From: Cornus controversa
Taxonomy: Eukaryota; Streptophyta; Magnoliopsida; Cornales; Cornaceae
NCBI GenBank assembly: GCA_026545225.1
Contig: CM048846.1
Coordinates: 89,917,270-89,981,269, forward strand
Direction of reading: 5' to 3'
Length of the DNA: 64,000 bases
Under the pieces are notes generated by a model. The model was not told where the DNA came from. It saw only the letters and a list, made by a program, of their open reading frames with translations, and did no database searches. Each line of letters opens with the position of its first letter. Position 1 is the first letter of the stretch. Both the position numbers and the translations under genes were made by a program. Below are positions 1-47,646 of the stretch, in pieces.

Positions 1-1439
1 TCAAAGATGAAAAATTACTCGAATTCACCAAAAATCACACCTATTGTCTACATAGTTAATTTCAAGCTTTACCTGTTGCTTGCATGAACCAACAATGATC
101 AAGGGTACACTCAATTTGAAAAGCATGCAAGATGAATGCAAAAGAATGACATTCATAGCAAAAGAATGGTGCAATATCAAGTTCGCTATCAAAAATCTAG
201 TAGAAACCCACAAAAACAAAGCTATATAAGACTAACAACTCCACAAATACAAACTCAACTTAAAATATTGTCCTGTCACCTTGGAGCCATTTCATTACAT
301 AAAACAGCATAGCCTGGTTGTAACCGTTTAACCTATGAAAATGAAATTGATAACCAAGCAAGAAACCCAAGACTGCAATATGTGCGTGTATGGTATGCGT
401 GTAGTATATATATTGTGATATGTCAGCACTCTCAATTGGCAAATTTCACACAATAAAGACTGTATGCACTCCTACTGAGCCCCCGTTACCATCTTTCCAA
501 CCTACAATACCTTTTCTTTTTCCACACTTTGCCCAGGGATAGAACGCTGTGGGTGGGAAGGTCATACCATTGGGCTAGAGGCCTTTTGGTTCAAACCTAT
601 GGTATTTAGTGAAACTACATCACTCAAAACAGGATTAACAGAAAAGAAATTGGTTGATTTCTCTAGTATATGCATGTTAATAATAGTCTTTAATGGACAA
701 TACATCACACCTACATTTTTGTCATAAACCTTGTAGCCATCTCATGGCATAAAACTAGTCTAACATGTATACAACTGTTTAAAAGTCCAGTCTAGTAGTA
801 TCCAACTGTTTAGAAGTGTGATGAAATTGGCGACCAACCTTGAGGCTGGATTTATGTATGCATGATCTCTAGAAGAGTGATGAAATTGGTGACCAACCTT
901 GAGGCTGGATTTATGTATGCATGATGTATATATGTATGTATGAATGTACGTATGAGTATGAGTGTGAGTGTGTGTTTGTGTAATGTAGCAAGCAAAACAC
1001 TCCAGATTAGCAGGAGACCATGCAGAATGATCCTTATCTCCAGGTTATATTCTAATCAATCCTGTAGTGGACTTCAATCACCAGCATTAGCTAATATGCC
1101 AAATAAACACAAAAACATATTCAACTGTGATAACCTAATCCATTCCTCATTGCAAATGACTGATCCTATCAGTACAATCACTTCAACAACAATTCATTAG
1201 ATCATAACCCAAAATTGTGCAATTGAGACTCTTAATACCAAAGTCTTGGAGAAAGAAAAAATAGGAATATAGTGAACATATAACTTAAAATCAGCCATGC
1301 ATAGAACAGAATCTTCACTAACATGAACCTCTCCTGCACCCATTTCCAGCAAGCCCAACAAGCTCTGAATTTCTGTCACAAGAATCATCAGATAATTAAA
1401 AATAAGATTCAGTATAGTTGTTTGAGTTGCATCAACGCA
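1..1439. other. Region downstream of eEF1B-beta, no separate gene
   Basis: No convincing coding exon was found here on either strand. Because the last clear eEF1B-beta exon carries a consensus-like splice donor near its end, part of this stretch may be a 3'-terminal intron and 3' UTR of that gene. It also contains a 59-bp tandem duplication at about 811-928. Confidence 0.5.
811..928. repeat. Tandem duplication, 2 x 59 bp
   Basis: Two adjacent near-identical copies (about 811-869 and 870-928) share the core gtgatgaaattgg followed by a block ending atttatgtatgcatgat. They differ at only a few positions, so the duplication is fairly young. No function is apparent. Confidence 0.85.
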
Positions 1440-3696
1440 TCATGCAATAGATTCATTATGAGATTTATCGGCAACATCCAAGAACTGTCTTGCAATGAAC
1501 TTACATATTTTATTGAAGGCCACAATATCACAGCTCTGGACAAACTCATCGATTGGCTCAACTGTGAGCTGTTCCTCAATGAGACTGTCAACAGACACCA
1601 AGTCATCCACAATGGTAAGCATAATCTGCAATTTCTTTATACCATATCCAACAGGTACGAGTTTGGCTGCAAAGAACACATGTTTACAAGTCATTTTGAG
1701 AAACATAACTTCACATGACTTGATTGCTTCAGTTCCAAAAAACTATACATTAGTTTCCATTTGTTCCTAGAAGAAATACAAGACAACAGAAAGAGAATCA
1801 TACATGCTCCCCAAGTCAATCCTTCCATATGAACACTTCTAACAGCTTCCTCAAGCTTTTTCATGTCAGTCTCGTCATCCCATGGCTTCACATCCAACAG
1901 AATTGACGACTTTCCAGCTGACAATAAAAACACAAGATTGAACTTATAAATTATTAAAACAGTGAGGGATTAAAAAAAAAGCAAGGTCTAAAAGCAACAT
2001 AAGCAAACATCTAAAGCCCTCCTGTTGGGGGGAAGTTGTAAAATAGTTCGGGATAAGCATTACAGCAATTGAACTATATACATCTGCCAGGGATTCCTAT
2101 ATAGAGTCTCCCAGCAAAGAAGTCCGAGGGTACGAAATAAAATGTTATGGATTACATAGATATATGTAGGTTACTAATCTTGAAACAATCTTTCCACTCA
2201 TTGATGTCCTATGTTATATCATATACGGACTCTTCCAAATGCATGAAATATCCATGTCAGATACATATCATCTGGACATGAGTACGAGGTTATATGTCTG
2301 ACACACTGACATCTCTTGATAGACATTCCCCTAGCAAGGATATTAACTATATAATTTAATTTTACATAGAACTGTCATACTATGTTCCTTTTCTAACATA
2401 ATTACTTCAAATTTCAAAACAAATACCCATATTAAAAGATATATACTACATAGAAACAACATTTATGCTAGGATATTAAATGATAATATTGATAATAACG
2501 AAATTTAGATGTGACTCCGTATTGTTGGAATTGAGAGTTTGATGAATCCGATACAGCAATAGACAAAGACATATACCAGAGTCAATTTAATATAATAATT
2601 GTCTAAAAATAATAAAAGCAAAAGACTCAAACTCTAATGCATGAATATAAAAGAGAAGAAACTCACATTCTTTCTTTTTTCCAGATGCCTTCACGGCAGC
2701 TGCACGTTCCTCAGCAGCCTTCTTTTCCTCTTCAGTCTCTTCACCAAAGAGATCCACATCATCATCATCGTCATCCTCAGCAGCTGAGGCCTAACACACA
2801 TGTTCCATACAAAGAATTAAGATACAATTCTTAATTATTAGCCACTAAACTTGTTCAAATGTTCCAGACTGTACAAAACTCCAGATATCAGAATAAAAAG
2901 AAGTGCGACTAGAAAGAAGTATATACAACCATGACATCAGGAAAAGCTGACAAACTGGCACATGCACACGCACGCTCAAAAAAGAAAAATTACAATCAGA
3001 CCATGATATCAGGAAAAGCCGACAAACTGGCACGTGCACATGCACACTCACAAAAGGAAAAAAGAAAAAAGAACAATTACAATCAGAACAATAGCCACAA
3101 ACGTTACACAGACACACATCGAGAAACTTACTTTAGTGTCAACAGCAGCAGGAGTTGCAACAACATCCTCCGTGATAGGAGCTGACCCCTCTACAGTGAC
3201 ACCGCAACCTTGACCAGAAACACCACTGCAAGGCCAGAATTTCAAAGAAAATAACTGAGTTCAAAAAAAATAGAAATTTGTAGAACATGATTGTACATCC
3301 ATACTGTTGTATCTTCACAATAATGATGACAGTCAAATAGGTTGCAAGAACTTACGAAATCCTCAAAAGTGCTTCAATGTGATGATACCACCGAGACACG
3401 TTCACATATTCAGATGGCGGAGGTTTCAAAAGCGCTGCATGCACCGTGATATCATCCTTTGAAGCTTGGTAGCTATAAGGGTGAACAAACAGATTATCAA
3501 AAATTCATATTCAAGGAGTCATATTAGTTATAAAAAATAAAGATACACATCAGTAAATAATTTAAGCCAGACACAAAAGTGAGTTGCAAATTTAATGCAA
3601 TGGAACTCACCCCGTGATGTAACTGCGTGTAAGGAGGTACTCATCGAGCTTCTTGAGGCCAGACCCCGAGCTGAGATTGTAGAATGCAACAGCCAT
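1440..3696 (-). CDS. Elongation factor 1-beta (eEF1B-beta), guanine-nucleotide exchange subunit
   Basis: This cytosolic subunit of the eEF1B complex recharges eEF1A with GTP during translation elongation. Coding exons on the minus strand are 3696-3611, 3472-3356, 3225-3132, 2790-2667, 1917-1804 and from 1666 downward. The phases join cleanly. The protein begins [20 protein letters not shown]. It has a GST-C-like N-terminal part, an acidic linker starting near residue 104 (five Asp, then [18 protein letters not shown]), and the C-terminal exchange domain from about residue 141 ([44 protein letters not shown]). The 3' end is uncertain. Reading straight on stops at 1440 and adds about 21 residues after FNKI (253 in total). 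However, a strong donor, T|GTAAGT at 1505/1504, lies exactly where the family normally ends (about 231 residues), so a short terminal exon further down may be used. Family identity is very secure; the last exon is not. Confidence 0.93.
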
Positions 3697-3721
3697 TGCT
3701 AAATAATTAAGTGGAGTCTAT

Positions 3722-4712
3722 CTGAAAGTAAAATAGGTTGATTTTAAGTTTATGCCGAAATGCATAGAGAGTTTATGTTCACCTATCCAACTGAATTAAC
3801 AAGTCAACAACTAATTAACGACTTGTCACACTCAAGAAACTGAAAAGACATTAAATTGTGCCAACTCTGACCAAAAATGAGGCAAGTGTAGATTAGAAAA
3901 AGTTCCATACAATTGTGATAATAGTCTTATGAGACTTCGCTGCATTAGATAGCTATTTGAGTATAGCACCCTTAACTTCCGTATTCTAATTTATCAACTA
4001 CCAATTAATAAAACACACATCAACTAGTAGAAATGTGTCGGGCAGAAACAGTATATATAACTTAATCTCAGGAATCATTATAAACACATCAATAACAATA
4101 TCATGTAATAGAACGTGCACTGACCTCATCAACGCAACATCCCTAAATGAACAAAAATAAGGGGCTTTAAATCGAACCAACATGAGCATACCAATAAACA
4201 CTTAGAACCACACATTCGCACATACAAATTGATATATGCCAAGCATCTAATAATATGCACTAAGGTCACATTAATTCATGTAAAAAAGTATTCCTTAGAA
4301 TACAAATCCTTTCTTTTTCGCATGTGTGTTTAATTTATAATCCCAGTATCTAATAGTATGCATTAACGTCACATTAATTCATGGAAAAAGTGTTCCTTAT
4401 AATAAAAATCCATTCTTTTTTGTGATTGTGTGTGCGTGGATTTATATCAGTGATTGAGATCAGATGGGTTCACTAGGAATCAATATCAGTTCCTCTAATT
4501 ACATGAACCGAGAGTCTAGCTCGCTAATTTCTAACTCCCGGAACCAAATACTACAACAATCAGACCCTCCACTCTCCAGCTAAAACTACGTAAACACACG
4601 CGCGTAAAAATCAAATATGAAAACGATGTATATGTATATACGTAGATTTATATTGATTGTGTCATTATAAATAAGATCGGAAACAGATGAGATCTGACTG
4701 GCGAAATCTTAC
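3722..4712 (-). other. 5'-UTR intron of eEF1B-beta
   Basis: On the minus strand, a donor GTAAGA follows gcgccg at 4713 and an acceptor ctttcag ends at 3722, about 25 bases before the start codon. This gives a 991-bp leader intron. Leader introns are common in highly expressed plant translation-factor genes and often raise expression; that role is an inference here. Confidence 0.7.
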
Positions 4713-4777
4713 CGGCGCTAGAGCTTTGTTTTCCTGGAGAAAGAGTTGAGCGCTTTAGGTTTTTGTCACTCCATGCT

Positions 4778-4788
4778 TTATATATATA
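4778..4788 (-). promoter_or_regulatory. TATA box of eEF1B-beta
   Basis: The minus strand reads TATATATAAA here. It lies about 65-75 bp upstream of the leader-intron donor. A start site about 25-30 bp further along would fall near 4750, giving a first leader exon of about 40 bases. This fits a strong TATA-driven housekeeping promoter. Confidence 0.6.
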
Positions 4789-4799
4789 CTACAAAAGTT

Positions 4800-6470
4800 G
4801 CACTGAGTGATCTGGTGTTACGCATCTTACCAAAGGTATAATGATTATCTTGTATCGTGACCGTTGATGTCGTCGAACTTGAAAACGAGCTTGTGGGAAC
4901 CCGGGTCAGTCTGTGGCCTCAAAACCTCTTGGGCGGGTCAATTCGATGTTCGAAGTTCCGAGCCTAGTCCGATTTCATGAATTTGTGCAACCATTTTTAA
5001 ATTTTGAATTGGACTTGGTTGAAAATTTTTAACTCAAATTTAATTAAGGTTAAGTTTGGATAGAGGCATCAATAATCAAGTCCAATTCGAATTTTAATTT
5101 AATTTTTATATACTTTTTAATTTTAAATATATTATATATATTTCAAATTATTAACACTTTTATTTTCTAATAATTTGTTTGTAATATTTTAAAATTTTAG
5201 AATTTTTTTTGTGTATATTGTATATTTTAAATTTTTAATTAATTTCATGCATGAAAATAGGTACTCTGTAAAGCATCATATCATTTCAAGACAACACGCA
5301 CCAATTTATCTATCTTCATAGATAGATAGATAGATAGATATATATATATATATAGGCTCTCTCCCCCTCTCAACTCGTCTTGCAGTCAACGACACTCACT
5401 ATTACAAAGATCGCGTGAAATTTTGACAATTTTTAAGGTCACTTTCATCGATCTCTGCCCCTCATTCTTGCACTACAATATGATGCTCAAATCCGATTTT
5501 AAGTCAAAGTTTAAAATTTTATTTTCTAATAATTTGTTTGTAATTTTTTTAAAAAAAAATAGAATTTTTGGTACTTATTGTATATTTTAAATTTCAAATC
5601 GGTTGCTTGTTAAGACAAGACAAACCAATTTATCTCTCCATATATATTACATGGTCTCTCTTCCTCCTCTCAATTGTTCCACTACACTCGTTGCTGCAAA
5701 GATTGTGTGAAATTTTGACAGTTTTTAATGAGCTTCTCTAGTCACCTTCGTCGATCTCTGCCATTCACTCTTCTTCCATTTACAAAACCGATGTCAAACC
5801 CGAATTCAAAGGTTTTACAAGAGCTGATGTCTTTAAATCATGCCTACGAGTTATTGTTACAATAAAAAAAGATGTGGTGAAATATATATGATTAACACAG
5901 GACTTGATCTTCAACTCCGTCTGTCTGTGTGTGAAACAAAATAATTTGCTCTCTCTCTCTCTCTCACACACACACAAACCCTTGAATTCCCTCTAATTGA
6001 TGTCCCTTGGAATTATTCTCATGGCGCTCGACAAACAGGCATTTGATGTGTAGTAACTAGCAAGTCTCATTTAGCAAATTAGTTTTGAAAATTGTGTACG
6101 AGCTTTCAGATTTATCACTACACGTCTAGAATCAAATACATTTGGAAATTGAATTTCACAAAAGGTAAAATAAATTAAAATGAAATCCTTTTTTTTTTTT
6201 GTTTGGAATAATTGGAATTTAATATGCTAAAGCAGGGTTAGAGTTATATAAACTACAAAATTTACTTAAATAAATCCAAACTCATGAAACCCAACAAAAT
6301 TTTCAGTACTACACATCTTAGCGATAATGAATGGTTAAATATTACATTTCAATCTTTCAAAGTACCTAGCTAAGCCAACACATCTTTATATTAACATTTA
6401 CAACTCCACATGTTAATGTTCAAAAAAGGTCAGCCATGAATGATCAAAGAAGTTTTGCTATGATCCAGGT
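4800..6470. other. Intergenic AT-rich region with diverged direct repeats
   Basis: No supported gene lies here. The stretch holds a degenerate direct duplication (about 5155-5500 and 5515-5800), a (gata)n/(ta)n simple repeat near 5320-5354 and a short (tc)n/(ca)n tract near 5950. Confidence 0.6.
5155..5800. repeat. Diverged tandem duplication, units of about 300-360 bp
   Basis: Successive blocks occur twice in the same order: attttctaataatttgtttg (about 5162 and 5521), accaatttatct (about 5300 and 5634), gtgaaattttgaca (about 5415 and 5706) and cgatctctgcc (about 5449 and 5752). The distance between copies falls from about 359 to 292, so indels have accumulated and the duplication is old. 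Confidence 0.75.
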
Positions 6471-7210
6471 CTAATCAAGCCCGTCTACTGCAGAAAGCCA
6501 CAGAGGGATTAGGTTAGGAGAAAATAGGGTTTTTAGGCTATATCAAACTCAATACTGGTAGCTGTTGATTGGAATTCTTGGCGCGGCTAGTGATGGATGA
6601 TACTGAACTTCTGGTGTTGAAATATATTATCTGACACCACATTGCCAAGACATTCTGTCCCTTGTCTGACTAAAACTCGATGCAGATGCAAGTCCATCTG
6701 AAGCTGTGGACTCGGTGAGCAAGCTCAGAGAGTCCCGCCCCTGGCCAAATCAAACTCAAAGCATATTGAAGTTTCTTTGAGTTCTGTCCTTGCCAACTGC
6801 TGGAACCTTACAGAAGTACAAGTTCAACGATGTACAGGGAAGAAAGAGAAGATTCTCTTTTGTCTGTGTGAGTATTGGTGGTGGGGATGTGGAAGGGGGA
6901 GCAATGTGATGATACTAATTTCATATTTAATTCAAAATTCAAACACCGTATGGTATCCAAGCTTTGATGTAAATTCAGTTTCAGTTCTATCAAATTGTTT
7001 TGAAGTACAGGTATCCAAAAGCCAAAAGGAAAATTCAGTACCTGATTCCCAAAAAGTTGGTTAAATGTATACATTCATCCAACATTTGATCTTTCAATCA
7101 AACACACCCTCTACACATTCATCCTTTTTATGTACTTGTAGCAGAATATGATGCAGTATACAAAATATGTGCACAAAATACACAAAAGAAATCCGCTAGA
7201 CCTGTAGAAT
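6471..7210. other. Region downstream of the Ulp1-like protease
   Basis: No confident gene was found. It probably includes the 3' UTR of the protease gene, which ends at 7211. A patch at about 6640-6860 is less AT-rich and has a plus-strand stretch of coding-like composition, but it is broken by stops and I recognise no homology. Confidence 0.4.
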
Positions 7211-9635
7211 TTACTGGCAAAATGAATCAAGTTTTTTGCAGAAGCATTCCAAGCCTTCGGTAGTAAACCAGTCTTCTTTCATCTGTAAGGTAGCAGCCGA
7301 AAAGATAAAAAGAATCCCATAATTTCAACATGAATAGGTTAATATAGTAAATGGCACAAAGGTTATGAAACAAAAAAACTCACAAAGTAAGGGTAGCCCT
7401 CAGATATGCTAAAATTTACGGGAGCACTCTCTATGAATAGGTTAATATAGTAGAGAACAAAATTGCCACATTCATCACCATTTCTCTGCTGCGGCACCTG
7501 AATTGTTTAATTTGTACAAATGAGCATTCATGAAAATGGATCAAGGAAACAACCAAGATAAGTTGGTCACCTTGGGAATCAAAAGAGGTATTTTATAAAT
7601 CATTTTTTTGTTCTCTGGCCTGTCCTCTGATTTATATATGTCCAACACAAACCTGAAAGGAAAAAAAGAACAGAAGTATAAACAGAAAGTATATAAATAA
7701 AGATAATATGCATGTGAAAGGGCAAAAGTAAAGAGCGTGTTGAACACTCATTTTGACAACTACAATGAAATAAAATGTTCACAAAAATATACTTCCTTAT
7801 CCCAGGTTCAAGTCGCTTTGGATTTGACATTTGCAGTGAATCCAGTAACAGCATGCATGGAGTTCCGATTTTTGATAGTATACTTTCACCAAAATGACAG
7901 AAGATCAAGAGACTCCAGTGACACCTAGGAAAACACATTTCAGTTCACAAAACAACGCAAACCGACAAGAATGAAATTTATGTTGCATGATCATTTAGGA
8001 AGAAATGCCAACCACTGAACAATGGGAACAAAGACGTATTTTGTTGAGAAAATATTCTTCCTCTTAATCCAATTCAACACCTTTTCTTTGGCAGCACCCT
8101 TCATGTACAATGAAAACCACAAGCAATCAAGATATGCGAATGAATTCCTCTTCTCCTCCGAGAGGCTCCTCCATAAATTCCTAAACAAACCATAAAATTA
8201 GTTTAGAAGAAGAGGTGACAAAAGGACAAGGTGCTTCTTTTCACATTAGATTATATAAAACTAGAGCTTACTCCAAGTAGCATTCAAACATATTGGTGTT
8301 CAGCTTCCCCTGCTGTTGGGTGATTCCACTAACACAGTTGATTCTCTTTGATCTTTCACGACAGCTGAAGGAAACTAAAGAACTTGGTGAAGCTTCTTCA
8401 GTATCACTAATTTGTTCATCTTCTCTTCTACTTTTTCTTTTTTGAAGAGCACGCCGACGTGCCACAAATTGTGGCTGACTTGTGTGGTGTTCCATAATGT
8501 GATGTCCAGGAAACTCTATCACAACACAATAAACTCAAGCGTCAATCCCTGATCATTTATTGGTTACCCAACATGAATTACAATGAATTTGATCAAATCA
8601 CATAAACTTTATTATGATTGGCGGTGATGAGAGGCACCAAGAAAACATGGGGAAGTTATACTTGTATCTTCAGCCTTTTCTTGATTTGTTTTTATCTTTT
8701 GCTGTGTATGTGGAGGCACTACAACATGTAGATCACTGAGCAATTGTTTCATAATTTGATTTGTACATATATCTGACATGACATGACATGACAAACTCAC
8801 CATTAAACTTGTAAATATTTACCAGTCACCCAAGATAAGTCTCAATAATTTGATCAAATATCCATCTAAAAAATAACAATTGATCAAAACACATAATGTC
8901 AATTCAATTAACTAAATTAGCAAATCACATTTTCAAGACTGGTATGCTTAAGTTTGTAACCAGTCAACCCCCATTTAGCACCCCGGATAACAGGACCGGC
9001 ATTAAGCAATGGCCTTCTAAATCTTCCCTATTCTATACTAAACTTCATGCTTTAATTCTAAATTTCCAATCAAAGGCATGCAAACTTCTTGATCTTAAAA
9101 TGCATATTTGACAAGTGTAATAGACATCGGAGCTTATGATTTCATCGAACATCAAAAGCTCCAACAATATCTTTCAAAAAAAAAATCAACTAAAAACAGC
9201 TTTTAAAGACTGATATTGATACAAATTTTTTTACTTTTTTTTTTTTTTTTTGCTGAGTATCTTTAATATAAAGCCATATAAATATATAAAAGAATATAGT
9301 ACAATATAATCAAAATGATAAACCCAAGCCGTATAATCACCAAACATACCAGCATTTGGAAGTTGATCCACTGTACCAACAAAGCATTCTGCAAAATTGA
9401 CATAAAACCCCAGTTCAGTAAATACTACTCCATAATTCATATATGTATATGTGTATTAAACACTGATATACAGAAGCCCTTAACCATATGAAGTTGTATC
9501 AATCAATAAAAGAGTATTAACACGTTAATCAGACAAAACCCTAATACCTGAAAGATTATAGAGGTTAGTGATCGAACCAGTTTCTTCATCTGCCGTCTTC
9601 TTTCGCGCCCTCTGATATGTCAGAGTCTCCTTCAT
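7211..9635 (-). CDS. Ulp1/SENP-like cysteine protease (peptidase family C48)
   Basis: This predicted protease probably cleaves SUMO or a related ubiquitin-like modifier. Nine minus-strand exons (9635-9548, 9388-9350, 8772-8662, 8515-8272, 8180-8013, 7924-7793, 7652-7571, 7497-7384, 7282-7211) join in phase to 1,050 nt, or 349 residues, ending CQ-stop. The catalytic domain fills the C-terminal half. His219 lies in WCHWSLLIF, Asp245 in CMLLLDSLQM and Cys298 in QQRNGDECGNFVLYYI; the upstream Gln291/Gln292 are candidates for the oxyanion residue. The basic, acidic N-terminal half (RRRALQKRKSRRED, about residues 90-103) looks like a linker with a possible nuclear signal. The start MKETLTYQRARKK is the first ATG of exon 1. 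The exon 5 donor (TG|GTTGGC) is weak, but the reading VFVPIVQ-WCHWS restores the family motif across it. The precise substrate (SUMO, NEDD8 or other) cannot be told from sequence. Closest class: plant Ulp1-like C48 proteins shorter than ESD4. Confidence 0.88.
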
Positions 9636-9639
9636 TCTC

Positions 9640-10415
9640 TCTCTAACTCTCTCCCGAAATATCAATCTCTAATTCTATATAATCTAGATATGTGCGTATA
9701 TACACGTGTGTGTCTTGCCTAACAAACCAAGCCCAACCCAGAAAAAGAGACATATGAGTTAATGAGATGTCGCATAATACGAAGTTAAGAGATGTTTAAG
9801 CTGAATTATCTCCGTGTTTTGGACTGATTAGTTCAAGGCGTCCTTTGGGTTGATGGAATTGGAAGGAGAAGAGAAGGAAAAAATAAATAAAGGACTAATT
9901 ATTTTTATATTTGGTTAACAATTGAAAAAATATATTTTGAGGTTAGGAGAGATGCTTGACTCTTCAAATTGTATTTTCACTGTACTTACAAAAGTACGAG
10001 GATTTAAAAATATACATAGACACTTTAATAGAACTTTCAAAATACTTAAGTTAGTTAAAAATAGGATAAATTATTCTGATCTCTTTAAAGGTTTTGACTA
10101 ATTACTTTCCGATTAAAATTTGTAAACTATGATTGTCAACTTTGCTAGATTTGGTTAACTTTACTCCAGGTATTCTTGTCGTTAATTGATAATCAGTCCG
10201 TTTAAGTTAATTAATAAAAAATAAAAATGTCAAAATTATCCTTGGTAGCGGTAGTTCTGGTGTTGCATTGATGGAGAAAATAGATATATAAAACATGTTA
10301 ATCTCAGTCAAATGATTAAAAATTAATGTTATTTTTGCACAAAAACTTATAACTTGATAGTACTTTTGTAATTGTATATTAAGTGAAATTTTGTTTGACG
10401 AATCGTTAGTATGAC
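9640..10415. other. Intergenic, upstream of the Ulp1-like protease
   Basis: This holds the 5' region of the minus-strand protease gene and then AT-rich sequence up to the LTR array. No coding sequence was recognised. The last five bases (atgac, 10411-10415) are the left target-site duplicate of the array. Confidence 0.5.
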
Positions 10416-12433
10416 TGTAACGACCCGCTCCACTGCATAGTATGATATTGTCCACTTTGGGCCTAAGTCCGCACGATTTTGCTATTGAATTTTACCCCAA
10501 AAGGTCTCATACCATTTGGAGAGAACACACTACATATAAGCACATCCCCTTCTCCACACTTGGGCGATGTGGGATTGAGCATCCTGTAGCTTGCCAGTGT
10601 AGTAGCTCGTCCAGTGTCTCTCGCACCCGCCCACAAGGGTCACCACAATCCACCCCCCTAGGAGGCCTGACGTCCCCGTCGGCACACTTTCGGCTAGGTT
10701 TGGCTCTGATACCATCTATAACGACCCATTTCACCACATGGTATGATATTGTCCGCTTTGGGCCAAGCCCGCACAGTTTTGTTCTTGAATTTTACCCCAA
10801 AAGACCTCATACCATTTAGAGATAACACACTATATATAAGCACATCCCCTTCTCCACACCCAGGCAATGTGAGATTGAGCACCCTGTAGTCTGCCAGTAT
10901 GGTATCTTGCCCAGTGTCTCTCACACCCGTTCACAAGGTCACCACAATTCACCCCCTAGGAGGCCCGACGTCCTCGTCAGCACACTTTCGGCTGGGTCTG
11001 GCTCTAATATCATTTGTAACGCTCCACTCTATCCCGACACAATATTGTCCGCTTTTGGTTCTGCTGAACCAAAGACTTCCTAGGGGATCACCCATCCTAG
11101 TACTACTCCTAAGTAAGCACGCTTAATTGTGGAATTCTGGTGAGTTCACAACCGTGAACTCACCACGGCTTTAAAATGTGTTTGTGTCATAAAAGGGTGA
11201 TAAACATACATATAACACTTCCCCATTTCACACCCAGGCAATGTGGCATTGACCACCCTATAGCTTGCTAGTATGGTAGCTCGCCCAGTGTCTCACATCC
11301 GCCCACAGGGTCACCACAATTGATGTGGGTGGGTGTGAGAGACATTAGGTGAGTTACCACACTGGCAGGTTACAGGGTGCTCAATCCTACATCGCCTGAG
11401 TATGGAGAAGGGGATGTGCTTATATGTAATGTGTTCTCTCCAAATGGTATGAGGTCTTTTGGAGTAAAACTCAAGAGCAAAACCGTGAGAGCTTAGGCCC
11501 AAAGCGGACAATATCATATTATGTGGTGGAGCGAGTCGTTACAAATGGTATTAGAGTCAAACCCAGTCAGAAGTGTGCTGACGAGAACGTCAGGCCTCCT
11601 AGAAGGATGGATTGTGGTGACCTTTGTGGGCGGGTGCGATAGACACTAGGCGAGCTATCATACAAGCAGGCCATAGGATGATCAATCCCACATCACTTGG
11701 GTGTGGAGAAGGAGATGTACTTATATGTAGTGTGTTCTTTCCAAATGGTATAAGACCTTTTGGAGTAAAATTCAAAAGCAAAACTGTGCGGGCTTAGGCT
11801 CAAAGTGGACAATATCATACCATCAGGTGGAACAGACTGTTACAAATGGTATTAGAGTCGGATCCAGCCGAAATTGTGCCGACAAGGACGTTGGGCCTCC
11901 TAGGAGGTGGATTGTGGTGATACTTGTGGCTGGTGCAAAAGACACTGGGTGAGCTACCACACTGGCAGGCTACAGGATGCTTAATCCCATATCGTCTGGG
12001 TGTGGATAAGGGGATGTGCTTATATGTAGTGTGTTCTCTCCAAATAGTATCAGATCTTTTGGGGTAAAATCCAATAGCAAAATCGTGCGAGCTTAGGTCC
12101 AAAGTGGATAATATCATACCATTGGGTGAAGCGAGTCGTTACAGATGGTATCAAAATCGGACCCAACCAGAATTGTGTCGACCAGAACGTCGAGCCTCCT
12201 AGGGGGGTGGATTGTGATAACCCTTGTAGGCAGGTGCGAGAGACACTGGACGAGCTACCACACTAGCAGGCTCAATCCCACATCGCCTGAGTGTGGAGAA
12301 ATAGATGTGCTTATATGTAGTGTGTTATCTCCAAATGGTATGAGGTATTTTGGGATAAAATTCAATAATAAAATCGAGCGAGCTGAGACTAAAGCAAACA
12401 ATATCATACCATGTGGTGGAGCAGGTCGTTACA
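10416..12433. mobile_element. Head-to-head array of seven TRIM-type LTRs (Cassandra-like fossil)
   Basis: Seven related LTRs of about 200-283 bp, each running TG...TTACA, sit here. Three are in minus orientation (10416-10625, 10716-10925, 11015-11297), then four in plus orientation (11334-11543, 11635-11844, 11934-12143, 12235-12433). Between them are internal segments of about 90 bp, each starting just after TTACA with a match to the initiator-Met-tRNA primer site (close to TGGTATCAGAGC) and ending near a G-rich tract before the next LTR. This is the layout of terminal-repeat retrotransposons in miniature multiplied by LTR recombination. The orientation flips near 11320. The five bases atgac occur immediately outside both ends (10411-10415 and 12434-12438), matching a 5-bp target duplication around the whole block. 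No protein-coding capacity is present. The copies differ visibly, so the array is not very young. Naming the family Cassandra-like rests on the 5S block in one LTR. Confidence 0.82.
11015..11297 (-). repeat. 5S-rRNA-bearing LTR of the TRIM array
   Basis: This LTR is about 70 bp longer than its six neighbours. The extra block (about 11075-11140, minus strand) closely matches the 3' half of plant 5S rRNA, including ttaagcgtgctt and agtagtactaggatgggtga, the region with the RNA polymerase III internal promoter elements. A 5S-derived block inside a small LTR is the hallmark of Cassandra TRIMs. It is a relic inside a retroelement, not a working 5S rRNA gene. Confidence 0.8.
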
Positions 12434-12513
12434 ATGACAGAGATGTAGGAGTAATTTTGCAAAAAAATTAATTTGAGAATAATTAAAACAAATCTTGAGA
12501 GTAATTTACTCTT

Positions 12514-12545
12514 AAAAATATCATACCATGTGGTGGAGTAGGATT
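12514..12545 (+). repeat. Stray fragment of a TRIM LTR end
   Basis: About 80 bp outside the array, the sequence aatatcataccatgtggtgg recurs, matching the last part of the plus-oriented LTRs. It is a short isolated fragment, perhaps a remnant of an earlier insertion or of gene conversion. Confidence 0.6.
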
Positions 12546-13141
12546 GTATATTGTCCAGTTCTGCTTGGTTTTGATATTAACCAAAATCAAAGAGGTTGTA
12601 ATCGTATATACTTCTAAAGTTAGGGCTTCATGTAACACAAAACACCAGACACAATCAATTTGGAGAGAGACAGAAAATGTGGCACAAGGGAGAAGATCCA
12701 AAGTGTGATCTACTAAAGGTTTGATATTTTTTTTTATCAAAAATCATGAAATTTGGTTCACTTTGGTTAGGAACCGTATGACACTTAACACATGTAACAA
12801 AACGTGAGGCAATTATCTTTAAATTATTAGAACAAAATATCAAAATATTAATATGTTCAAATTATTAGATGTCAGGATCACATGAATATGGACATATGGT
12901 AAATAACAATTTATCAAACACACAAGTAATGAAAATTAAACAAAAGTTTTGAATCAAGATTTAGTATTGTGTAGTTATTTATTGAAGATAGTTAAAACAT
13001 CTCTTAAGTGTACTCGGAACATTATGGCAACACTATGTTTTGAATTAAACTAAGTCAAATTTAACAATCCAGATGTCCATAAGTTAGCACCTATATGAGC
13101 CCACATATTCATCTATTTTCAATTGTTCGTAAAAAAATATA
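12546..13141. other. Intergenic, nothing recognised
   Basis: AT-rich sequence without a convincing open frame or repeat. Its last nine bases are the left target duplicate of the Mutator-like element. Confidence 0.5.
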
Positions 13142-16281: not shown

Positions 16282-19200
16282 ATGGCGGATCTACAATCTC
16301 CTCCACCACCACCGACACCTCCACCGCCTCGGTCCACCACCGACTTCTTCGGGGACCCGATTGACTCCCACCCAATGTGGTTCAAACAATCCTCCTTCCT
16401 CCAACCGACCTTCGACTCCGAATCGTACATCTCCGATCTCCGATCCTTCGTTCCCTTCGACACTCTCCGATCCGAGCTCCAATCCCATTCATCGTCCCTG
16501 AAGCACGAGCTCGTCGAGTTAATCAACCGCGACTACGCCGATTTCGTCAATCTCAGCACCAAGCTTGTTGACGTCGACGGTGCAATTGTGCGAATGCGGG
16601 CACCGCTGACGGAGATCCGCGAGAAGATCTTGGTGTTCCGGGGGACGGTGGAGAGCTCGCTTTCGGCGCTTCAGAGCGGGTTGAGGCAGCGGGCGGAGGC
16701 CGCTTCGGCGAGGGAGGTTCTCGAGTTGTTGCTACATACTTTCCATGTTGTGTCCAAGGTATGTGAATGTGAATGGATTGGGTTTAAACTCAATTTTGGC
16801 CTTGTTTGGTGACTGAGAAGTTGTGAGAAAATAGAGAGAGTTGAATGTCTTAGATCTTGCAATTTGAGAGCTTAGGTTTTTCATAATTGGGATTCGGGAA
16901 ATGAGGAACTTCTAATTTAGACTCAATTTAGTAACAGAAGTACACAAATTATGAACTTGAACTTGAACTTCCCGAAATCCACGAGTCCGATTCATTTGAA
17001 TTTTGGCCTTGTTTAGTTGTTGTATTTGTGCTGTGTTTCATTGCTGAGAGAACTCAGGAAAAGAATAGAAAGTTAAACTTTATTTTTATTTTATTGTTTG
17101 CCAAAAATTGAGAAACTGACGTCAACCAAGTTAAACATTTGGGATGGCTAAGTTTAGTGCACAATTTTGTTTTCTTTTCAATTTTGATATTTCTTGTTAG
17201 GATGAATTTGTGTTTTATTTAACCTACATATTTTATTAACCTGAATTAGGATTCTTTCATTTGCAGTTGCAAGCTTTAGAGCTTCATTTAAGATAATATA
17301 CATTTCTGTTGTTTATGTACAAGGGGTTACAGTTTATATGTATTTTTATTTTTTTAATTGCAGGTTGAAAAATTGATAAAGGAGCTGCCTAGTGTGCCGA
17401 CTGATTGGTCCAACGGATATGTAAATTCCACCGAAAAGGGTCATTTAAGCAATGGAATTTCCTTACAGCACACTGAAAATGGAACAAATCTCAGGGAGAC
17501 TCAAAGCATGCTTTTGGAGAGAATTGCCAGTGAAATGAATCGGCTAAAGTTCTATATTGCTCGTGCACAGGTCCGTCTTGATCTCAACCACTTGGTAATA
17601 TTTTTAGAGTGTGTTTGAGTGAGGGAATTAGGAAGAAAAAGGAAAAGGAGGTAAATTTATCTCACCTTCTTGAGTATCTTTTTCCAGGGCCAAAAAAGGA
17701 AAATGTTTGAATTTTTATTTGCAATACATGTGTAAAAGAAGAGCCAACGGCAATACCTTTTCCATCAGAATAGCTAATTAAGTGTGATGTCAAATCTTTA
17801 ATTCCTGAACATTGTCTTGAAGTAGTGATTCCTCTAATATATTTAATATTTTTTACTTGGATAACTATTTTATTGTACTCATTGGTGCTCAAGCAAGTAT
17901 TATTCATGCACAAAGCTGCTATAGGCTAATCTTACTGTGAAGAATCAATGGCTATTGGGTAGCTGTGTCAATAACCTACACATTTTCTATCCTCTCTTAT
18001 GGCAGTACAGAACCTGCCATTCATTGAGAATATGGAGAAGAGGATACAGAGTAATAGCCTGTTATTGGATGCAAGCTTGGGGCACTGTTTTGTAGATGGA
18101 CTGGAACACAGGGATGCAAATGCAATATACAATTGCTTGCGTGCATATGCTGCTATTGATAATACCAGGAATGCGGAAGAAATTTTTCGTTCAACTGTTG
18201 TGGCACCAATGCTACAGAAAGTTATTCCCCACAGTTCGTCAGGGGTGGTTGGTGGGGCATCAGGAGATGAACTTGATGAGGACTATAAGCAAATCATCCA
18301 ACATATAGACAGTGACTGTAAATTTTTATTGGAAATTTCCTCTACAGGTATTGCCATCAACCTTTGGTGCTACTATATTCTTAACAACTCAAGAAAGCCT
18401 TATGGCCCTCTTCCCAGCTATTTAAGTCATTGCATGCTATTTTGATTATGATATCATGCACAACCCCAACCAAACATTGTCCTTGTAGTGCCTTTCAGCC
18501 GAATATTTTAACTCTCAGTTGGTGTGCTCACCAGTCTTTGTTGCCGAGCCCAGGTCATCCCTGTGATATACTTTACCGTAGTTTTGCTATTCTTAAGTTA
18601 TAAAGAACACATTAATTTTATTTTTCAGTAATTTGTTTCTTTGTCAGTTTTCCATTTCAAAATCATTGTTTCAGATATGGACATTTTATTAAAATATTGT
18701 TTGTTGAGTTTTGACTGCCCAAGATCTTTGTAGTTTGTTCATAAACCTTGGATTGCTTTATGGCCTTCCTTAAATTGTCCTTTTTAAACCTTTTATTTGA
18801 GAGGTATGCAAGAATCATGCCAAGCCATAAACCCTTTTCTCTTCATTCCTATCTCTCTCGCTCTATTTATTTATTTTTTGCTTCGTCATGTTCTTACTTT
18901 GTAGGCAAGACCCTCTTCAATCTCCCACTTACTTTGGATGATTAATCCAATATGGAGAAAACAGTTTTGCTGTTTTATATTGCAAAAAGGAAGTAATAGG
19001 ACGATCTTATATATGATTACATGTCAATTATTAGTTTTCCTCGATGTTTGTTATTTACTAGTTTCTTCAATGTTCCCAAGTACAAAGAAAGAAAGAAAAA
19101 AATTCTTTGCTGTTTATTGAATTAAATTTTTTGATATGCAGAAAATTCAGGTCTGCATGTATTTAGCTTCCTGGCCAATTCAATCCTTAAAGAGGTTCTC

Positions 19201-26956: not shown

Positions 26957-47646
<20,690 letters not shown>

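Follow-up and report, generated by a model that had tools for sequence, protein, structure and literature searches.

Tiny retrotransposons often enter this genome as mirror-image pairs or arrays in which the same end points outward on both sides, an arrangement which suggests that two DNA copies can be put in together via one preferred end. One such block occupies positions 10416-12433 of the window (the whole stretch of 64,000 nucleotides that was analysed). It holds seven LTRs of a TRIM with a unit of about 300 bp, three in minus orientation and then four in plus orientation, with five internal pieces of about 68 bp each between the LTRs. The block starts with TGTAACGACC and ends with GGTCGTTACA, and ATGAC exactly abuts it on both sides; the coordinates and letters of this three-against-four array agreed exactly with the original prediction. 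The arms are TRIM, but the block as a whole is not an ordinary TRIM copy, both of its outer ends being U5 ends. Its features (window positions; strand where there is one) are the following.

10231..12520: dispersed repeat broken by the array, limits approximate; its paralogs are the empty sites (38 read-through places)
10411..10415: ATGAC, left target-site duplication; letters exact, pentamer single in 8/8 fetched paralogous empty sites
10416..10647, minus: left arm LTR 1, outermost, U5 end at 10416 (repeat finder and LTR annotation)
10648..10715, minus: left arm internal domain 1, from PBS-like ATGGTATCAGAGCC to PPT-like CCTAGGGGGGTGGAT
10716..10946, minus: left arm LTR 2 (LTR annotation)
10947..11015, minus: left arm internal domain 2 (match 10952-11013)
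11016..11318, minus: left arm LTR 3, innermost, probably Cassandra-type, 303 bp
11061..11165, minus: 5S-rRNA-like stretch within left LTR 3 (RF00001, 26.4 bits, E 0.013, below the gathering score of 38)
11309..11330: head-to-head centre, intact U3 end CCACA plus AT, then the right arm starting inside its LTR
11321..11543, plus: right arm LTR 1, innermost, long-form LTR without its first 24 nt
11545..11612, plus: right arm internal domain 1
11613..11844, plus: right arm LTR 2
11846..11912, plus: right arm internal domain 2
11913..12143, plus: right arm LTR 3
12145..12212, plus: right arm internal domain 3
12213..12433, plus: right arm LTR 4, outermost, U5 end at 12433
12434..12438: ATGAC, right target-site duplication; letters exact, supported by the empty sites

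In the sense direction the order of parts (judged by eye) was LTR, at most two bases, a PBS like ATGGTATCAGAGCC, which we take to be of the initiator-methionine tRNA type, about 45 bp, a PPT like CCTAGGGGGGTGGAT, and the next LTR. Because the PBS-like stretch (ATGGTAT(C/T)A..) comes after the same LTR end inside the array, the outer ends could be identified as U5 ends, in line with what had been claimed, and from the order of the unit it follows that both outer ends are U5 and that 11318/11321 is where the U3 sides of the arms face each other. The LTRs (221-303 bp) stand in direct order within each arm, and the outer LTR ends read TGTAA../..TTACA. A repeat finder reported inverted arms of 349 bp, 84% complementary, and the inverted termini result from two LTR arms facing each other; a MITE or a TIR DNA transposon was ruled out by the PBS, the PPT and the occurrence of family members with direct LTRs and 5-bp duplications. 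At the centre, the left U3 end is intact and followed by AT, while the right inner LTR begins at position 25 of the 247-bp subfamily form, and the inner LTRs of the two arms belong to different subfamilies. Absent from the original prediction was the probable Cassandra-type nature of left LTR 3, with its 5S-rRNA-like piece; this Rfam match was found in one of the seven window LTRs and, at 26.4 bits, lies below the gathering score of 38, as do the matches of 31-35 bits in young loci related to the array. The sister pairs of LTRs that had been proposed as a guide to the origin of the array would have to be sought in an old, star-like tree, the six ordinary window LTRs being 79-87% alike in all directions. 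With seven LTRs, five internal regions and one ATGAC pair, the block falls within the definition of a tandemly arrayed TRIM, or TA-TRIM (at least three LTRs, at least two internal regions and one duplication pair). An ORF of 125 aa (10442-10819) spans LTR and internal DNA of the array.

Several other features were seen in the window. Beyond the right duplication, at 12514-12548, is a piece of 29-35 bp similar to the U5 end of the LTR (93% over 29 nt). About 4 kb from the array, 16282-16812 on the plus strand is an exon with a COG2_N domain (Pfam PF06148, E 4.3e-26) of a Golgi-complex gene. Two directly abutting copies of 228 bp (31880-32107 and 32108-32335) form a tandem duplication with 98% identity. 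Direct repeats with 90% identity at 34024-34626 and 35516-36110, about 0.9 kb apart and with TTGGTATTAGAGC just after the first copy, are probably another small LTR element.

Empty sites were sought in the window's own genome (771.7 Mb, 61 contigs) with a query in which a single ATGAC joined 180 bp of flanking sequence from either side. Matches ran straight through the joined flanks, without the array, at 38 other places, and the array therefore sits within a dispersed repeat. The eight empty sites that were fetched (L079-L086), which are paralogous and not allelic, all carried the target pentamer once (ATGAC in one, other NTGAC in six, NTGAT in one), which confirms the 5-bp target duplication of the original prediction. 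No sign of copying of a ready-made palindrome was seen for the window: among the best 40 scored candidates, the window alone matched the full length of its 301-bp centre, and the head-to-head matches ranking next were 76-82% alike.

Head-to-head loci recurred in three samples, each consisting of the 40 best-scored candidates for one query, that is, top-scoring rather than random places, the first sample and the other-subfamily sample overlapping. In the first sample (39 loci examined from the best 40 of 5345 first-look candidates), a switch from minus to plus, that is, from U3 to U3, was present in 13 of 39 loci, or in 12 of 36 without the segmental duplicates L025, L041 and L042; L025 shares flanks and the same palindrome with L020, and the pair was counted once. 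Both U5 ends were complete in 10 of these 13 palindromes, one end being truncated in L010, L039 and L045. A young Cassandra query gave 14 head-to-head loci in its 40 best places (12 by table, L065 and L077 by fetched DNA only), and a query from another subfamily gave 13 of 40 (a hand count, judged by table alone except for loci fetched earlier). The resulting frequency of about one-third is valid for these family samples only. The recurrent palindromes include young Cassandra elements with 5S-like LTRs.

A switch from plus to minus only, which would leave both U3 ends outermost, was found in none of the three samples (39, 40 and 40 loci). Plus-then-minus joints did occur beside minus-then-plus ones, in L047, L048, C3:45518447, C1:93957399 and, as a distant 51-bp fragment, C1:35773186; C1:93957399 and C1:35771320 carry an extra fragment in opposite orientation outside the head-to-head part. 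A genome search for the U5-U5 joint pattern returned six rows at four places, of which L047 and L048 were real inner joints and L049 and L050 were rejected as direct elements with a similar flank; the exact Cassandra U5-U5 joint pattern had no match anywhere in the genome. The U3-U3 pattern returned six rows at five places, one of which (L055) was rejected as a direct array with a similar flank. The U5-U5 joints of L047 (1232-1237) and L048 (1293-1301) lie in multi-switch arrays, and one of them reads GTTACA-GATC-TGTAAC, which could be the joint expected for two unprocessed U5 ends. Two direct copies, L038 (481-937) and L036 (461-1814), have a 5' LTR cut in U3 and yet a duplication of 5/5 (AGAAC) or 4/5, hinting at integration via a non-standard U3-side end.

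The target duplications of 26 independent U5/U5 palindromes were compared, with the result that 16 matched at 5/5 positions, four at 4/5 and six less well.

5/5 duplication: the window block, L018, L020, L057, L059, L060, L062, L063, L064, L065, L073, L074, L075, L076 (read by eye), L077, L078
4/5 duplication: L011, L028, L040, L044
No good duplication: L013, L027, L053, L056, L058, L061

Loci with a truncated or unread end (L010, L039, L045, L047, L048, L052, L054 and L067, the last being part of L078) were left out. In a set of 22 palindromes with both U5 ends scored, which includes the duplicate L025 and counts L065 as unmatched, 11 reached 5/5 and four reached 4/5; re-pairing of the flanks of these 22 produced on average 1.05 pairs with at least 4/5, and never more than six in 10,000 shuffles, against the 15 observed. 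L065 was unmatched there because an inner stretch of about 2 kb split the locus, which as a whole reads GCTTG/GCTTG. The set of 26 is the set of 22 without L025 and with L074, L075, L077, L078 and L076 added, L065 being read as a whole locus. Direct elements with both ends scored reached 4/5 in 19 of 26 cases (with L012/L041 and L021/L042 being duplicates, and with L021 and L030 scored low, though 5/5 elsewhere, because their ends were extrapolated differently), so palindromes and ordinary insertions have boundaries of about equal quality. At its left end, L053 carries a direct repeat of 11 bp and a filler of 18 bp in place of a good duplication.

Three rival explanations fit these observations poorly. 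An ordinary direct array could have been inserted and part of it inverted later, with the outer ends kept in place. Arrays do change after insertion: L021 and L042, which have two and three LTRs, respectively, can be aligned both inside the element and in the flanks (1070 bp at 92%, 1077 bp at 89%), so array length changes once the element is in place. Inversion would, however, have to turn an outer U3 end into a U5 end right at the 5/5 duplication of no fewer than 16 separate loci, and should also yield the U3-out products that are missing from the three samples; moreover, the segmental duplicates L020 and L025 retain the same palindrome. We consider later inversion improbable. The original prediction had left it side by side with integration of a palindromic multimer as a unit; the latter is supported, as integration of a palindromic or two-part product via two U5 ends (empty sites; 20 of 26 palindromes with 4/5 or 5/5 duplication), and the former is unneeded.

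Two or more independent insertions, nested or neighbouring and in opposite orientation, are easily imagined in a family this common (5345 first-look candidates), and L070 and the outer fragments at C1:93957399 and C1:35773186 do look like neighbours or nested pieces; the complex locus C3:512 (L076) has CAACCATT repeated beside an inner end. A nested insertion would nevertheless leave one U3 and one U5 end outside and add inner duplications, and by eye none of the latter was found at the printed centres, apart from L076. Such insertions are also hard to square with 26 two-U5 loci, 20 matching outer duplications and empty sites with a single target, and as a general account they are highly improbable. 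Some long-read chemistry is known to create spurious inverted repeats, and an assembly or fold-back-read artefact might produce them here too. We give that next to no credence, given that the window LTRs differ by 13-21%, that the arms of L063 and L064 differ by subfamily, that the structures end at 5-bp duplications, and that the pattern is repeated at many loci.

The centres of the palindromes bear on how the two arms came together. In L053, two Cassandra elements with 5S-like LTRs are joined as CCACA-AT-AT-TGTGG, their arms showing four differences in 650 aligned bases plus one 41-bp gap. The joint is ATTAT in L062, a single, shared AT in L054 and ATCCCGT in L063; in L064 it is AT followed by an arm without 7 nt. 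L059 has a 283-bp filler, which over 143 aligned columns is 81% identical to the larger LTR element in the middle of L077. Other centres are cut in the LTR or the internal domain, on one or both sides. The PPT/U3 border in family copies is GGAT|TGTGG, and AT is therefore what an unprocessed U3 cDNA end could carry; AT neighbours 15 of the 19 intact U3 ends at centres not running on into the PPT (a hand count in which the one AT of L054 is tallied on both sides, and L063 and L052 could be PPT remnants). L063 and L064 each pair a 5S-like Cassandra arm with an arm of a type of about 245 bp, under a 5/5 duplication in both loci, and L073 has a variant LTR in one arm only, likewise with 5/5. Among young Cassandra loci, mean differences were 2.83 between arms, 2.71 within an arm and 3.97 between loci; in older subfamilies the median identities were 0.864 for opposite arms, 0.875 for the same arm and 0.839 for different loci, a weak contrast.

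Some middles hold additional DNA. In L077, a 6.7-kb middle (799-7487) contains a larger LTR-like element, whose fusion to the Cassandra internal domain lies close to the primer binding site in both arms. The inner arms of 1923 bp are 99.9% alike and enclose a single-copy centre of 2.8 kb; this larger element is a possible co-packaged partner. In L065, foreign DNA between the arms (964-3070) ends in an LTR-like end ..GGGCGTGACA fused to the Cassandra PBS/internal domain. L056, L073 and L078 carry a Cassandra LTR variant with an insert of about 126 bp, and the middle of L078 contains a PBS-like GGTATCAGAGTG piece, where no tRNA gene was called; none of the five loci with fillers or variant LTRs contained a tRNA gene. 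Rfam miRNA matches at palindrome centres, all below gathering scores, were taken as chance.

A single cDNA could also give such structures by folding back: minus-strand DNA would prime on itself from its 3' end, which lies at or close to U3, and the resulting palindromic cDNA, with U5 at both ends, would be integrated. This predicts the U5-out polarity directly, and it agrees with the centres of L058 and L076, which lie at natural LTR palindromes, with the 99.9% identity of the L077 inner arms over 1923 bp, and with arms of young loci that are about as alike as LTRs within one arm; for L058, L076 and L077 it is the main rival. Against it, the arms of L063 and L064 are of different subfamilies under 5/5 duplications, which is hard to obtain from one molecule, the inner LTRs of the window also differ, and the AT-AT joint of L053 is exactly end to end. 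A hairpin has, besides, one open end only and would need copying or opening before two-ended integration. On balance, we hold fold-back of one cDNA to be unlikely for the window block.

The window block is, more probably than not, a Cassandra-related TRIM insertion derived from two separate cDNAs that entered one target together. A borrowed integrase would engage the U5 end of each cDNA, the two probably coming from the same particle, and join both to the target in one concerted reaction, which would create the 5-bp duplication. The U3-side ends, often incomplete, may be joined to each other, before or after integration, through end joining by the host or through reverse transcriptase jumping from one end to the other, and further LTR-internal units could be gained later, or in concatenated cDNA, through LTR-LTR recombination. 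Against this reading stand the six of 26 palindromes without a good duplication, the arms of most young loci, which are no more different than LTRs within one arm and may there have a single source, and the loci L058, L076 and L077 that suit a fold-back. Further points against it are the U5-U5 joints, which so far lie within multi-switch loci (L047, L048, C3:45518447), and the outer fragments at C1:93957399 and C1:35771320; the integrase evidently also accepts U3, since ordinary insertions go in with one such end. A broader proposal, which we put forward tentatively from sequence comparison, is that TRIM cDNAs enter this two-molecule mode about one time in three: the integrase would pair the U5 ends of different cDNAs in trans, perhaps since a cDNA of about 550-700 bp is too short and stiff to join its own ends, and the idle U3 ends, with their unprocessed AT, would be sealed together. 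The palindromes would then record cDNA ends and a U5-dominant integrase, and would continually supply LTR loci that can form hairpins.

In the textbook account, an LTR element enters with one U3 and one U5 end. If roughly one in three loci in a plant TRIM family is a two-U5 insertion, the end preference of an integrase and the completeness of cDNA become readable from genomes, and counts that rely on direct LTR pairs overlook many insertions. Hairpin RNA could also arise from LTRs that stand head to head. For the Arabidopsis element EVD, closely spaced antisense LTRs were sought as a possible silencing trigger; that search found none, and one antisense nested insertion was reported (PMC11624286); Cassandra would supply many natural cases of this arrangement.

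Several known systems resemble the loci described here. Tandem TRIM and Cassandra arrays are established (PMC4717578, PMC7215508). Cassandra (Kalendar et al. 2020, PMC7215508) has, like the elements here, a 5S-like LTR domain, an internal domain with PBS and PPT only, and long LTR-internal arrays; its arrays are described as tandem and as formed by LTR-LTR recombination or template switching, and the text available to us contained no head-to-head form. SMART, a 292-bp LTR retrotransposon (PMC3281118), is similar in total size to the family here, but it is a grass element with LTR ends TGTT..AACA, and the comparison here is one of size. Multi-LTR plant structures are also described in PMC11899658, with no inverted or head-to-head LTR form in the portion available. 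The original prediction had known of no head-to-head TRIM with an intact duplication; a precedent is nevertheless in print, an inverted TRIM pair from maize with one 5-bp target duplication, CTTCA (Gao et al. 2016, PMC4717578, Fig. 2C legend). It is a single figure-legend example, and the accessible text of that paper says nothing of a polarity rule, of how joints are built, of how often inverted forms occur or of a mechanism, whereas the form seen here is recurrent, Cassandra-type and U5-out. Among the matches listed, no further paper on head-to-head, palindromic or inverted LTR elements or TRIMs was found from titles and the starts of abstracts, and no account of the recurrence, the U5-out rule, the anatomy of U3-U3 joints or two-cDNA integration was found in this mostly non-subscription literature. 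Retroviruses offer mechanistic parallels. At the junctions of 2-LTR circles, unprocessed ends are joined by end joining, and in concerted integration in vitro with two identical ends, integrase can pair two like ends. Here, a product of two like ends (U5/U5) has been inherited in a plant genome, with its target duplication.
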